Shown here one piece after another: positions 2 through 63,669 of a stretch of 64,000 nt of DNA. The DNA lies in the NCBI GenBank assembly GCA_027972325.1, contig JAPMOS010000003.1:1055001-1119000 (forward strand). The letters run 5' to 3'. The DNA is from Paratrimastix pyriformis. Taxonomy: Eukaryota; Preaxostyla; Paratrimastigidae. The notes beneath the pieces were generated by a model. That model saw nothing but the letters and a program-made list of their open reading frames with translations. It made no database searches and had not been told where the DNA came from. Position 1 is the first letter of the stretch, and every line of letters begins with the position of its first letter. A program made the position numbers and the translations under genes.

Positions 2-3000
2 GACCCGCTGGACGAGTGCGAGTGGGACCCGTATGGCGGGTTCGTCGCGACCGCCCTGCCCCCGCCCCAGCAGCGCCCCCTCGACTCAGGCGCCCCATCC
101 AGCGCCGGCCCCCGTCCCGTGGCCGCCACGTCCTCCTTCCCGGCGCCGCCGCCACCACCACCCCAGGGCGACATCGGCGAGGGCGATCCGTCTGCCGCAG
201 GGTCGGAGCTGCCCAGCCCCAACCCCAGCACCCAGCCGCCCGGGGACCGCGCACAGCCGCGCAGGGGCGAGCATACTGCTGCTGCCATACGCTCCTCGGC
301 CCTGCCCGAGGCGGCCCCGGCATCCCCGGCATCCCCGCTGGCCTCGCCGGCCTTCCCCCTCCGGCCCACCTCGGCCCGGCCTGGGTCCCCCTCGGGCGGG
401 GCCACCGGCCGCTCGGTCCCGTCGCGCCCCCCGTCTGCCGCCAGCGCGCGCCCCACCGCCCCACCACCCACCCCGGCCCCGTCCACCGGGGGGCGCGCCA
501 CCCCAACGGGCGCCAGTCGGATGGGCAGGCCACAGTCGCCCCTCGTCCGCGAGCCGCCGCCCGCCTCGCAGCCGACCCTGCCCGAGGTGGCGCCCCTGCG
601 CACCACGACGGTCGAGCTTTTCGGGGCCGACGAGGGCGAGGGCGAGGGCGAAGGAGGCGGCGAGGAGGCCCTCCCGTCCCCCGAGGCCCCGGCCCCCGGG
701 CGGAGCGAGAGCCCAACACCCTCGCCGGCCCTCGCCCAGCGGGCCTCCGTCAACCGGCTCTCGGGCTCCAAGGAGCGCGGCCCGGAGCCCTACTGGGAGA
801 CCTCCACGGGCGGCTACCGGATGCCGCGCCTGGGGGCCCTGCTCAGCGGGGCCATGAGCACCCAGCGGCCACACTCGCCCCCGTCCGGCCAGCTGTCGCC
901 CCACCCGCCCGCCCCGCCCCCGTCATCGGCCTCGACCTCGCCCCGGCACAGCAGCCCCGGCTCGCCCAAGGCCCGGCTGGGCCACGGCCCGGGTGGGGTC
1001 GGACCGGCCGTCTCCTTTGCGCCGGCCTTCCCCGAGGGCGCGGTGCGGATCGAGACGTGCCCACCCGCAGCCCCGGCCCCCGCCCGCAAGGCGGCCCCAA
1101 GGTCGGCTCAACCCCGGCCGGGCCTTCTCATCGCCCCGCCACGCCCCGCCACGCCCCGCCACGCCCCGCTACGCCCCGCTACGCCCCGCCCCGCCCCGCC
1201 CCGCCCCGCTCCTGGCTCACCCCCATCACCGCCCGTCTTTCCCCCCCTTCCGCCATCCTGTCCTCTCTCCCCGGCGTCGGCCCAGCCCGCTGGTGCTGCT
1301 GCCCCCCTCGGGCCCCCCGCTGGTCGGGGAGAGCCCCCTCTCGACGACGGCCACCCCAGCCGGGACCCCGCTCACCACCGCCGACGGGCTGCTGGCGGGG
1401 CTGCCGGCCCTGGTGCTGGCCGGCTGCGAGGTGCCGGCCATCCTGTCGCCCGCCGGGGCCATGTCCCCCTGCACGGCCCGGCCCCCCACGGCCACCGTGC
1501 AGCGGCACCCGTTCTCGGTCTCCATCGAGTCGCGGGGCCCCTCGACCTCCCTCCCCCAGGGCGCCCTGCTGGCCATGGCCGCCGCCACCGCCCCCGATGC
1601 CCCCGATGGCCTCCACACGGCACTGGCTGACTTCTCGGGTGCCCCCTGGGCGGTCGCCGTGCCCCTCCTCGAGCAGCCCCCGGCCGACCCGCAGCCGCAG
1701 GTTGCCCCGGCCGGCACCGACGGGCTGCCGTGCTCCTCCTCCTCCTCCTCGCCCCGGCTGCCCACGGGCCTGGCCACCCCTGTGCCCCTGCACGCCCAGC
1801 GCCAGTTCCCGGCCGCCCCGGACGTCTCGCTGCGGGCCTCGGCCGGCCAGCTGGTGGGGGTCCCGGGGCACCACCCCGCCCAGGCCTGGGGGCCGTCCCC
1901 AGCCCCGCCCACCCCACCCCCCGCGCTGGTGACCGGCTCTCCGGGGGCCGACAGCCTCCAGCTGAGCCCCACGCCCCGCCCGACCCCCGTGCCGGCGGGG
2001 GTCCTCTCGTCCCGCTCCTCGGCCACCTCCGACCGGCCGCTGCCCCCCGCCTGCCGGGCCGCCACATCGCCGCCGCCCCCGGCCATCTCCCCGCCCCTGC
2101 CGCCCCCCAGCCGGCCCAACACGCCCCGCGCACCGGCGGGGGGCGTCGGCGGCTTCGTGGCGGCGGTTGCCCTGGTCGAGAACGCCTCCCCCTCCCGGGT
2201 GGCCAGGCCGCCGGACAGCCCCCACTCCACGGCGGACTCCCCCAAGGGCCTCCCCACCACCCTGACCCTCCCCGCCCCGGCGGCCCTCCGCCCCCGGCCC
2301 GCCAGCGCCCATCCCTTCAAGCAGCACCGGGCCTCGGCGGGGTCCCTCCGGCCCAGCAGCGCCCTGGCCAAAGCACCCACACACATCGGCCTTGCGGGCA
2401 GCGGGGGCCTGGGGGGCGGCCTGACGACCGTCCGGCTGGAGCCGCCCTCGGACCTGCAGCCCCCGCCCCGGGCAGCCGTCCCGCTGGTGGTGGCGCTGAG
2501 ATCCGCGCCCCTCCTCGCGGCCGCCACCGCGGGCGAGCGGCCCGACGCCAACAACATCCTCCGGGCCTCGCGCTCCCTGGGCGGGCTCCTCCTGCGCCCC
2601 CAGACCCCGATGGCCCGCTGGCGCGCCTCGACGGAGACCATCCGCTTCGTGCCGCCCGGGCGCACCCTCGACTCGTTCCGCGAGCGGCCCGGCGAGGCGG
2701 AGGGCGGCTTCACCACCCCGCCCGGGCCCCTGCGGACCCTCGCCCACCGGTCGCCCTCCCCGCCCCGGTCGCCCGAGGGTCCCATGCCCCTCGGCTCGGT
2801 GCCCGGGGCGGAGCTCTACATGACCTCGATCTCGCCGCCCCCCTCGCCCCTCGCCGGGATCCCGCCACCGGCTGCCCCCCCGGGGAACCCCACCGTGGTG
2901 GCGGCGACCACCTTCGAGCTGCCGGAGCAGCTGCCCGGCCGCCACACGGACGGCACGCGGGTGGTCAACCTCCGCTTCCCGTCCCGCCGGCCGCTCCGCC

Positions 3001-62000: not shown

Positions 62001-63669
62001 GGGCCTGGGGCTGGTCGACGGGCGGCCTCAAGAGCGTGGGCGGCGAGGAGCCCACCACAAAGGGCCGCAGCCAGCGCCGCACACGGCCGGTCTGATCATC
62101 CCGCCCTTGTGGCTGCCCTCGCTTCCCGCAAATATGGCTCCGTGTGCCCCTCTGTCCCCGCCCTGTCAGGGTGGTGGTGGTGGTGGTGATGATGATGATG
62201 ATGATGATGATGATGATGATGATGATGATGATGATGTCACGCGTCACCGCCGCCTCCCCTTCCCTCCCCCCGTGTCTGTGTGCCTGTGTCACCGCGGGGG
62301 TCGCAGCCGCCCGGCGGGCAGACCTCGCTGGCCCAGCGGAAGAAGCGGCTGAAGTTCGACCGGAGCCCCATCCACGACTGGGGCCTCTTCGCCCTGGAGC
62401 CCATCGAGCGGGGCGAGCTGGTCATCGAGGTCCGCCCGGCTGCCCCCCCGCCCGCTCGTGCCCTCGCCCCCATCCTTGGCACACGGCTCGGCCGGAGGCC
62501 GAGGGGCGCTGGGCGGGTGGGCGGTGGCCATCAGATGTTGTGGCCTGGCCAACCACACGCGCTTCTTTGGCTCCGATGAGGACCTGCCCCTGCCTGACTG
62601 TTGAACTCTGGCGTGTGGGCTGGCCCATCCGATTTGTGATCCCCCCTGCTGCGAGCCGTTTCACTCCGACTTGACCCTGTGGGTTGGCCTGGCGGTGGGG
62701 TGGTGGCGGGCGGCTCAGTCTATGGGCGGCGATGTCATTTGACTGTTTGTTTTGGATCGGGCCGGCGGTGGCGGGTGGCGCAGTACGTGGGGGAGGTCGT
62801 TGAGTCATCCGCCCTACTTTTTCGGATTGGGCCGGGCGGCTGGGCGGGTGGTGGCGGGCGGCGCAGTACGTGGGGGAGGTCATCCGGCAGCAGGTGGCCG
62901 ACCGGCGGGAGGAGCTCTACGAGGCCGAGGGCATCGGCAGCTCGTACATGTTCCGGGTGGACGGGACCACTATCATCGACGCCACCAAGACCGGCAACCT
63001 GGCCCGCTTCATCAACCACTCGTGCGCCGTCCGCCCCGGCCTCCCACCACAGGCACCACAGGCACAACCACTGACACTGCCACACTCGCACGCCCTCATC
63101 GCTCGTGCGCCGTCCGCCGCCTTGCCACCGTCACGACGCTCCCGCTGTCACGAGCACCCCCATCGTCCCAGCCCCGCATGGCTCGGCTCCCCCCCATCGT
63201 CCCGCCCACACATGTTGACTTGCCCGTCTCCGGCTGTTTCCGTGTCTGTGTCCGCCCCTGACCGTGTCTGCGGGTGGGCGTGTGGCGCGCACAGCCCAAC
63301 TGCAGCGCGCAGATCCTGGACGTGGGCCGCGAGAAGAAGATCGCCATCTACAGCCAGCGGCGCATCGAGGCGGGCGAGGAGCTCACCTACGACTACAAGT
63401 TCCAGGACGAGGACGAGGCCAAGGCCATCCCGTGCAACTGCGGGGCCGAGACCTGCCGCGGCTACCTGAACTTCGACCCCGAGCAGGCACGCCTGGTCAA
63501 GTCGGCCCGGGCACCCGAGAAGTCCCCGACGCCGTCCCCGAGCCCGGGCCCGTCTCCATCCCCCGCCGCATCGGCGACATCGGCCCTGGCCGTCTCGCCG
63601 CCCCCGGGCATCGCCACCTCCCCGGCCGCCCCCGAGTTGGCGCCGCCCCCGCCACCACCCCCCATGTGA
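53034..63669 (+). CDS. SET1: SET1/COMPASS-type histone H3K4 methyltransferase
   Basis: The N-terminal exon (ATG 53034) is Arg/Asp/Pro-rich with YPPHERD heptads and RS-like runs. A Set1-type RRM is split over 56011..56106 ([32 protein letters not shown]) and 56588..56710 ([20 protein letters not shown]), matching the HPxTRxHLG pattern of Set1 RRMs. The centre is very Pro/Ala/Ser-rich, with Arg-Ser repeats at about 59715-59965. The last exons are phase-perfect: one ending 62089 (RSQRRTRP), then 62307..62429 ([20 protein letters not shown]), 62867..63028 ([28 protein letters not shown]) and 63295..63669 ([17 protein letters not shown]; post-[17 protein letters not shown]). SAM-binding NHSC, the catalytic Tyr in ELTYDYKF and the three post-SET cysteines are all present. 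It would mono- to trimethylate H3 Lys4 in COMPASS. Introns hold many minisatellites. Donors are GTCCG or GTCTG. The protein extends about 50 Pro-rich residues past post-SET, unlike most SET1 proteins. Middle exons were not all resolved. Confidence 0.9.
54620..54800 (+). repeat. 20-bp minisatellite CTCATCTTCTCATTCATGGT
   Basis: About eight tandem copies with no spacers, in an intron of SET1. The absence of unique spacers excludes a CRISPR array. Confidence 0.9.
55226..55335 (+). repeat. 6-bp TGCCTG tandem repeat
   Basis: About 18 copies of a hexamer within an intron of SET1; the three frames give poly-Cys-Leu, poly-Pro-Val or poly-Ala-Cys, none expected in protein. Confidence 0.9.
56116..56294 (+). 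repeat. 12-bp CCCGCACCTGCC minisatellite splitting the SET1 RRM
   Basis: About 14 copies fill the 5' part of the intron between the two RRM exons (56106 to 56588). The intron starts GTCCGG at 56107. Confidence 0.9.
57040..57160 (+). repeat. 15-bp CATGTCTCCATCACC minisatellite
   Basis: About seven tandem copies, with looser related repeats to 57330. Probably intronic in SET1. Confidence 0.85.
60630..60880 (+). repeat. (ATC)n / TCATCATCCGG composite microsatellite
   Basis: TCATCATCCGG units give way to a pure (ATC)n run of about 25 triplets ending near 60866. The flanks GTCTC (60602) and CACAG (60882) suggest a SET1 intron; the poly-His and poly-Ile frames open here are then not translated. 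Confidence 0.85.
62186..62236 (+). repeat. (GAT)n microsatellite in SET1 intron
   Basis: About 17 triplets in the intron between 62089 and 62307, just upstream of the first SET-domain exon. Confidence 0.9.

Follow-up and report, generated by a model that had tools for sequence, protein, structure and literature searches.

Few known RNA sequences are as conserved as the 5' end of U1 snRNA. Because it touches every intron, a change in it should be nearly lethal. In yeast and human, U1 positions 5 and 6 are known to be pseudouridines. For the Saccharomycotina, the available text of Parker et al. 2023 (PMC10581693) describes ACUUACC as unvarying wherever a U1 was called (227 of 230 species, and 9 of 10 outgroups, 236 in total), a switch of donor position +4 from A to U that tracked METTL16 loss, and a Psi5-to-A change in U1 as a conceivable compensation. 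The available portions of reports on protists describe a Giardia U1 that retains ACUUAC and faces the donor UAUGUU with a U-U mismatch left (PMC3510501), a C-run variant U1 in the diplonemid S. specki that exists beside a canonical U1, with a donor logo that is canonical too (PMC12621601), and highly variable intron ends with no U1 found in Amoebophrya (PMC7789003). A literature search on Preaxostyla and U1 snRNA returned no papers, and nothing relevant to GTC-type donors appeared in the titles and abstract openings of the matches listed.

Paratrimastix pyriformis is a free-living flagellate in which both partners of the U1-donor contact, a contact that other lineages keep almost unaltered, appear to have changed. 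Judged from the genome sequence, it very likely has ordinary U2-type GT-AG introns whose U1:5' splice-site code has been rewritten both in the RNA and in the introns. It is also likely, though a little less so, that this is a natural and complete recoding in an intron-rich genome, with A5-G6 in place of Psi5-Psi6 in all U1 genes, GTCYG in place of GTRAG and no canonical U1 left.

Introns of the window

In the window, the 64,000-nucleotide stretch of contig JAPMOS010000003.1 analysed here, 14 introns were placed by homology: 11 in a PMS2-type gene and two in a SET1-type gene, both with a flat spliced aligner, and one in a gene for a HAD-family hydrolase, where the boundaries were read by hand. 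Thirteen of the 14 donors are GTC. The SET1-type introns lie on the forward strand. The one at 63029..63294 (donor GTCCG, acceptor CAG, phase 0, delta 35) joins ...FINHSCA to PNCSAQ... and is flanked on either side by stretches 18-69 and 70-105 of the SET profile, while the one at 62430..62866 (GTCCG, phase 0, delta 25) joins ...ELVIE to YVGEV.... The HAD hydrolase intron, at 37230..37288 on the same strand, has the donor GTCTG, and the joined protein aligns without gaps to PDB 3kbb across the junction.

The PMS2-type mismatch repair gene, which matches the MutL_C and HATPase profiles, lies on the reverse strand. Its intron at 49518..49560 (43 nt) has the donor GTCTG at 49560 in the flat spliced alignment (delta 39), and the one at 49392..49440 (GTCCG, delta 54) joins FGFRGE to ALSSLC. 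The donor is also GTCTG at 48652..48708 (delta 37), 46532..46581 (delta 35), 46361..46411 (delta 11) and 45896..45943 (delta 30), and at a possible, weakly resolved intron at 48991..49041 (delta 4). Introns at 49212..49262 (GTCTC, delta 27), 48468..48574 (GTCAG, delta 26) and 46025..46079 (GTCGG, delta 48) have other GTC donors. The lone non-GTC placement in the window, GTGGC at 46242 (46191..46242), is doubtful (delta 1).

An earlier note on this DNA had listed GTCCG, GTCTG, GTCGG and GTCAG donors, and at 16 of 16 coordinates the motif it gave is present on one strand. Five of its positions coincide with sites placed by homology, namely donors 49560, 62430, 63029 and 37230 and acceptor 63294. 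Agreement is at the level of the motif for 13206, 15283, 5035, 18832, 45409, 56107, 42572 and 1102, for 41403 and 41524 (both very short introns), and for 4463 and 4643, assigned to CNOT11. The CNOT11 identity itself is borne out by a PF10155 match (94.1 bits) at 4076..4510 on the reverse strand, where the domain reads through in a single frame that contains the proposed GTCGG donor at 4463.

Donor consensus across the genome

Genome-wide placement used a flat splice-aware aligner that asked of a donor nothing more than GT (GC and AT were also allowed in Prp8) and was neutral at +3 to +6. The acceptor had to be AG in the kinesin, PMS2-type, SET1-type and RPC2 genes, and AC was also allowed in Prp8. 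Across 18 contigs and 24 genes or loci it gave 186 introns, 154 of them with GTC donors (kinesins 117/144, Prp8 17/19, PMS2-type 10/11, SET1-type 2/2, RPC2 8/10). The kinesin counts cover 20 loci; 14 further kinesin loci were left out, as were several tubulin genes, which match in one open frame. In the best-resolved set, the 93 introns with a delta of at least 15, 86 donors are GTC and 68 are GTCYG. The seven others include five GTT and two GTG (GTGCG, and GTGCT from the RPC2 alignment, delta 43, which was not adjusted by hand and stands as an exception). GTRAG, and with it the GTRAGT of canonical U2-type introns, occurs at none of the 93 resolved and none of the 186 placed donors. The donor bias described for the window holds in the window genes, Prp8, the 20 kinesin loci and an RNA polymerase III subunit gene, 18 contigs altogether, and the earlier description of the motif as a genome-level trait stands.

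Such a pattern could be an artefact of composition, in which GTC is merely common in a G+C-rich genome and homology-guided placement picks it by chance. GTC does make up a third of GT in the window (0.322 of all GT on the forward strand and 0.345 on the reverse; GTCYG 0.047 and 0.068, GTRAG 0.032 and 0.018). Measured against 0.345, however, 86 of 93 is a large excess (binomial p about 9e-32), as is 68 of 93 for GTCYG against 0.068, and the aligner, as noted, was neutral at +3 to +6. In the conserved part of Prp8, 17 of 17 introns have GTC (11 GTCCG, 5 GTCTG, 1 GTCGG), and with GC, AT and AC also permitted all 17 chose GT and AG. When every dinucleotide was permitted, eight of the 17 junctions fell exactly at the GTC site and nine left it, which favours an artefact, but the shifts were small (1-2 bases in eight introns, 9 bases in one); in four introns an alternative junction 1-9 bases off scored 1-5 points higher. 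An artefact would also leave the matching U1 described below unexplained. The U1 sequence and the bias at +3 and +5 together speak strongly against this reading, which is extremely unlikely.

The introns retain GT...AG ends, with acceptors mostly CAG or TAG. Minor introns have the U12-type donor consensus RTATCCTT; the donors here are GTCYGY, they make up the great majority of placed introns, and U1 itself bears the compensating letters, so that the probability of a U12-type class is negligible.

An annotated protein allows one comparison with gene models. Ribosomal protein L3, joined at GTTTGT and GTCCGT donors, is identical to the NCBI P. pyriformis protein over 390 of 390 residues (100%). 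The gene models of the genome authors used RNA-seq intron hints, according to the available text of their report (PMC10703272). Queries with Prp8 and PMS2 proteins gave no P. pyriformis protein among the 120 matches listed, so that RPL3 is the gene on which this comparison was made.

U1 snRNA genes

The earlier note predicted a U1 with compensating bases opposite +3 and +4, and such a U1 is present: both positions are changed in all eight U1 genes detected in the assembly. All begin AUACAGACCUUG rather than AUACUUACCUG, positions 5-6 are AG and in none of the eight loci UU, and G6 thereby faces +3 C and A5 faces +4 U. The U1 covariance model (RF00003) matches over positions 1-166 in the eight loci (E 3.7e-13 to 2.0e-10), with scores of 50.8-60.2 bits that lie under the Rfam gathering score of 69.5. 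The match is full-length, and in place of the recognition sequence ACUUACCU all eight carry ACAGACCU, for which reason the RNA is termed here a U1 homologue with altered recognition and not a canonical U1. A BLAST search with the U1 body found the same eight loci and no others, and the copies are 98-100% identical.

All 18 snRNA genes inspected (8 U1, 6 U2, 4 U6) have a core CCCATAA (mostly GTCCCATAAT) near -60, so that U1 shares its promoter core with U2 and U6, and AATTC directly precedes the inferred first base in 8/8 U1 and 3/6 U2 genes. The U1 genes are presumably expressed, with the 5' end at that base and pairing with donors as drawn; the expressed U1 would be the AUACAGACC form and not AUACUUACCU. 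If so, the pseudouridines of positions 5 and 6 could not exist in P. pyriformis.

Two intron classes served by two U1s would require that a canonical U1 was missed or lies in unassembled sequence. The assembly may be incomplete, the covariance model scored 41 of 992 first-look candidates, and 100 of 165 ATACNNACCTNG matches were listed. Yet covariance and BLAST searches agree on the eight copies and found no canonical U1 in the assembly, ATACTTACCT occurs at 0 of the 100 listed ATACNNACCTNG sites (165 matches in all), and GTRAG occurs in none of the 186 placed introns. A G5 version, which would pair with +4 C, was also sought: the 100 listed matches include 15 ATACGGACCTNG sites, and none of the 13 that were read, in 12 stretches, is followed by a U1 body within 60 bases. 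A second U1 is therefore very unlikely. Ten ATACAGACCTNG sites that lie outside the U1 loci were also listed; the four of them that were read in this way (L082-L085) likewise have no U1 body within 60 bases.

Pairing of U1 with the donors

In modelled duplexes, P. pyriformis U1 binds CAGGUCUGU at -12.1 and CAGGUAAGU at -4.5 kcal/mol, and canonical U1 shows the reverse order (-11.8 for CAGGUAAGU, -6.6 for CAGGUCUGU). With 86 of 93 resolved donors being GTC, U1 is, by modelled pairing, complementary to the 5' splice sites of its own genome. The gain is uneven among donors. GUCUGU is fully paired (-12.1 kcal/mol) and GUCCGU has a helix break (-7.4 kcal/mol). The gain is clear for GUCUG, smaller for GUUUG and just 1.7 kcal/mol for the commonest donor, CAGGUCCGU (-7.4 against -5.7 with canonical U1); CAGGUCGGU shows no gain (-7.4 against -7.7 kcal/mol). 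The GTT donors, which the earlier note had called rare exceptions, fit as wobble partners of G6 and constitute five of the seven resolved non-GTC donors (5 of 93 resolved). Position +4 favours a pyrimidine, as described earlier, with the refinement that C is not disfavoured against U: the 93 resolved donors have 48 C and 32 U, and C is not depleted relative to intron composition (p 0.73), although by standard rules A5 pairs with U and not with C. One possibility is that A5 is modified, e.g. to inosine, which would pair with both.

U2, U6 and the role of U1

The other two snRNAs inspected have canonical elements. The U6 ACAGAGA box is canonical in 4/4 copies, and the U2 branch-site sequence GUGUAGUAUC is canonical in all six genes read (of ten genome matches, one of them partial). 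The earlier note offered a co-evolved U1 or U6-dominated recognition. The U1 half is supported; U6, its box being unchanged in all four copies, shows no compensating change. U6 could still lead recognition, because it is able to pair with +4 U, +5 G and +6 U.

The donors might be read mainly by U6 or by proteins, with U1 of minor importance and its change a product of drift. As far as the available text of the two sources goes, Amoebophrya yielded no U1 (PMC7789003), and the metamonads studied have almost none of the U1-associated proteins (PMC6679479). In P. pyriformis itself, a C at +4 finds no partner in either U1 A5 or the U6 A, and modelling gives GUCCG little gain. Against this, the eight U1 genes are 98-100% identical and all have the snRNA promoter core, the two substituted letters of U1 are able to pair with those substituted in the donors, and the donor has shifted most at +3, a position that U6 does not read through pairing. 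A minor role for U1 is very unlikely.

In the favoured reading, a code rewritten on both sides, U1 would begin with AUACAGACCUU; G6 would pair with +3 C or wobble with +3 U, A5 would pair with +4 U and tolerate +4 C, and the pairs of C4 with +5 G and of A3 with +6 U would be retained. The donors would have shifted from GTRAGT to GTCYGY to match. The 5' splice site would then be handed to the unchanged U6 ACAGAGA box, with which +4 U, +5 G and +6 U could pair. As a guess, donors of a metamonad-like type, which have U or Y at +4 in Giardia and Trichomonas, may have been the starting point.

A lineage in which U1 and the introns changed together amounts to a natural experiment in compensatory mutation. 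It makes it possible to test how a recognition code can shift across a whole genome, whether U1 needs its two pseudouridines, what U6 demands at +3/+4 once U1 stops imposing A, and whether wobble-compatible intermediates (GTT, +4 U) acted as a bridge. The genome is also a source of a naturally divergent U1/donor pair, and gene finders trained on GTRAG would misplace its introns.

Comparison with known systems

P. pyriformis shares with canonical U2-type introns and their ACUUACC U1 the GT-AG ends, the mostly CAG/TAG acceptors, a U1 complementary across the donor, and canonical U2 and U6 elements. It differs in having C at +3 and Y at +4 in place of R and A, and AG in place of UU at U1 positions 5-6. 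The remaining comparisons hold as far as the available text of each source goes. The Saccharomycotina also changed +4 towards U, but in P. pyriformis U1 has changed and so has +3. The loss of METTL16 and SNRNP27K seen in +4 U species does not seem to apply, as METTL16-family (PF05971, 64.5 bits) and SNRNP27 (PF08648, 34.7 bits) profiles match at family level. Giardia is likewise a metamonad with donor U at +4 (PMC3510501); its U1 sets a mismatched U against that base, and the U1 of P. pyriformis an A. In S. specki, too, the 5' end of a U1 gene is altered (PMC12621601), whereas in P. pyriformis all eight detected copies are changed, and the donors with them. Amoebophrya, too, is a protist with many unusual splice sites in its genome; unlike it, P. 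pyriformis has a tight new consensus and a U1 that matches it.

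Donor sites

Intron donors (5′ splice sites) and the 5′ end of the U1 snRNA are altered in Paratrimastix pyriformis at positions that face each other. An earlier note had described GTCYG donors in place of GTRAG in the window, and its GTC motif is present on one strand at all 16 of the 16 donor coordinates it named. Whether such sites are real donors or chance occurrences was tested with a spliced protein-to-DNA aligner (BLOSUM62), whose only splice-site requirement was GT at the donor and AG at the acceptor, with intron positions +3 to +6 unweighted. For Prp8 (contig 456 of the assembly, with Arabidopsis Prp8 as guide), the permitted set also included GC or AT at the donor and AC at the acceptor. 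The aligner placed 19 introns in this gene. All 17 in the conserved part carry GTC. The other two, close to the N-terminus where conservation is poor, are non-GTC: one GTTCG and one GC site, the latter absent from a local rerun. Across 20 kinesin loci, 144 introns were placed, 117 with GTC and none with GTRAG. GTC donors were found in 8 of 10 introns of an RNA polymerase III subunit gene and in 12 of 13 introns of two window genes, one PMS2-type (mismatch repair) and one SET1-type.

Resolution was measured as delta, the drop in score on forbidding a donor (for Prp8, from a local GT/AG-only rerun). At a delta of at least 15, 93 of 186 introns are resolved (14 Prp8, 62 kinesin and 17 from the RNA polymerase III subunit and window genes). 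Their donors begin with GTC in 86 cases, GTT in five and GTG in two; the +4 base is C in 48, T in 32, G in 11 and A in two, and +5 is G in 84. In the window as a whole, GTC accounts for a fraction of 0.322 of GT sites on one strand and 0.345 on the other; the p-value for the GTC donors against the 0.345 background is about 9e-32. The 93 introns with delta below 15 include 68 with GTC and none with GTRAG, a lower GTC share that is expected if part of these rows are false introns. In a control that allowed all dinucleotides, eight of the 17 conserved Prp8 introns had their top-scoring junction exactly at the GTC site, eight had it one or two bases away and one had it nine bases away; in four of the 17 the shifted junction outscored the GTC site by 1–5 points. 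Homology by itself thus narrows the position down to a few bases, and the GT-AG requirement settles the remainder.

Ribosomal protein L3, joined over two introns with GTTTGT and GTCCGT donors and read through to the stop, matches the P. pyriformis "putative 60S ribosomal protein L3" at 390 of 390 residues. The published gene models drew on RNA-seq intron hints and transcripts (PMC10703272), so the L3 match indirectly checks a single GTCCG donor and a single GTTTG donor at the RNA level. The same paper reports a genome of 56.6 Mb (633 scaffolds, 60.9% G+C), and its few main-text passages on introns and splicing do not mention a donor consensus. The G+C fraction of the window runs from 0.58 to 0.78 over 4-kb steps.

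Intron sizes vary: in the PMS2-type gene (window 45896–49560, minus strand), 10 of the 11 placed introns are 43–57 nt long, the 17 conserved Prp8 introns are 68–458 nt long, and kinesin loci contain both kinds, so two size classes may exist. By eye, the GTCTG sites at window 41403 and 41524 would give putative introns of 24 and 19 nt with the nearest AGs. Among seven branch-site-like words counted in the last 60 bases of the 76 Prp8 and kinesin introns, CTCAC (19) and CTGAC (10) lead and CTAAC occurs once (raw, uncorrected counts).

Spliceosomal snRNAs

The U1 search covered the whole assembly (56.06 Mb, 495 contigs). Scoring 41 of 992 first-look candidates with the Rfam U1 model gave full-length matches at eight loci; a BLAST search using the U1 body recovered the identical eight and no further locus. 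The best match score, 60.2, lies below the Rfam gathering score of 69.5, and the RNA is therefore named a U1 homologue with changed recognition. Its 5′ start is ATACAGACCTTG at all eight loci, compared with AUACUUACCUG in the model consensus; position 5, facing +4, is A and position 6, facing +3, is G. The co-evolved U1 that had been proposed, with the U1 5′ end as its check, is thereby supported, the letters facing +3 and +4 being changed in every copy detected.

U6 and U2 keep canonical recognition sequences: all four U6 copies have the AUACAGAGA box, and all six U2 copies read have GUGUAGUAUC. A CCCATAA core, mostly as GTCCCATAAT, lies near −60 in all 18 genes inspected (8 U1, 6 U2, 4 U6), and U6 genes have an extra TTATAAGG or TTATCAGG near −30. 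All eight U1 genes and three of the six U2 genes carry AATTC immediately ahead of the inferred first base, a position that supports the inferred 5′ end. TCAAG occurs near −30 in 6 of 8 U1 and 3 of 6 U2 genes, and the core is often preceded by a T-run (within 75 bases upstream of the genes at L001–L012 and L048–L053, the U1, U2 and U6 loci).

Pairing and mechanism

In a naked RNA model, the new U1 pairs unbroken with GUCUGU (−12.1 kcal/mol, vs a weak −6.6 for canonical U1), and canonical U1 pairs unbroken with GUAAGU (−11.8 vs a weak −4.5 for the new U1). The gap is small for GUCCGU (new U1 −7.4, canonical −5.7 kcal/mol), and for GUCGGU there is no gain (−7.4 vs −7.7 kcal/mol). U1 would contact GUCYGY through G6 and C4, with A5 and A3 assisting, and the 5′ splice site would then be handed to the unchanged U6. 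The minority of GTT donors fits a G6–U wobble. Purines are under-represented at +4: A occurs in 2 of 93, with about 15 expected from intron composition (taken from the resolved introns of Prp8 and the kinesins, 76 in all). C and U stand near their composition ratio (p 0.73), so this position is read as "pyrimidine". An A–C mismatch may be tolerated there, or U1 A5 may be modified.

Other features of the window and genome

Several calpain-family matches (Peptidase_C2, Calpain_III) in differing frames at window 8000–27600 (minus strand) suggest a calpain gene cluster; calpain-like coding sequence was also seen by eye on the plus strand at about 7084–8000. Window 6840–6970 and 5990–6250 hold TTCGACGCTG- and TGTCCAAC-like repeat units in apparently non-coding DNA, judged by eye. 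Elsewhere in the assembly, tubulin matches form two pairs, each on one contig with its members on opposite strands and identical in score, at 73812–74444 and 149117–149749 of contig C35 and at 1058535–1059128 and 1079671–1080264 of contig C112.

Comparison with known systems

No report of a genome-wide switch of U1 and donors was found in the portions of the literature searched. Parker et al. (2023) describe ACUUACC as invariant wherever U1 was found (227 of 230 Saccharomycotina and 9 of 10 outgroups) and suggest that a U1 Psi5-to-A change could compensate for +4 U (PMC10581693). The Bigelowiella nucleomorph retains the U1 motif and has introns without a motif beyond GU (PMC6461891), and in the diplonemid S. 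specki a variant U1 accompanies the canonical one (PMC12621601). In the oxymonad Streblomastix, 20 of 21 introns are reported to be canonical GT-AG (PMC1501061). According to a 2023 study, Schwartz et al. were earlier unable to establish definitively that donor variation correlates with U1 sequence (PMC10599564). The +4 base is U or Y in Giardia and Trichomonas (PMC3510501, PMC12316389), and Giardia U1 retains ACUUAC (PMC3510501); from this one might guess that a +4 U donor came first and that U1 A5 and the +3/G6 exchange followed. METTL16 and SNRNP27 are reported lost in +4 U yeasts, whereas the P. pyriformis assembly has family matches for both (PF05971 and PF08648).
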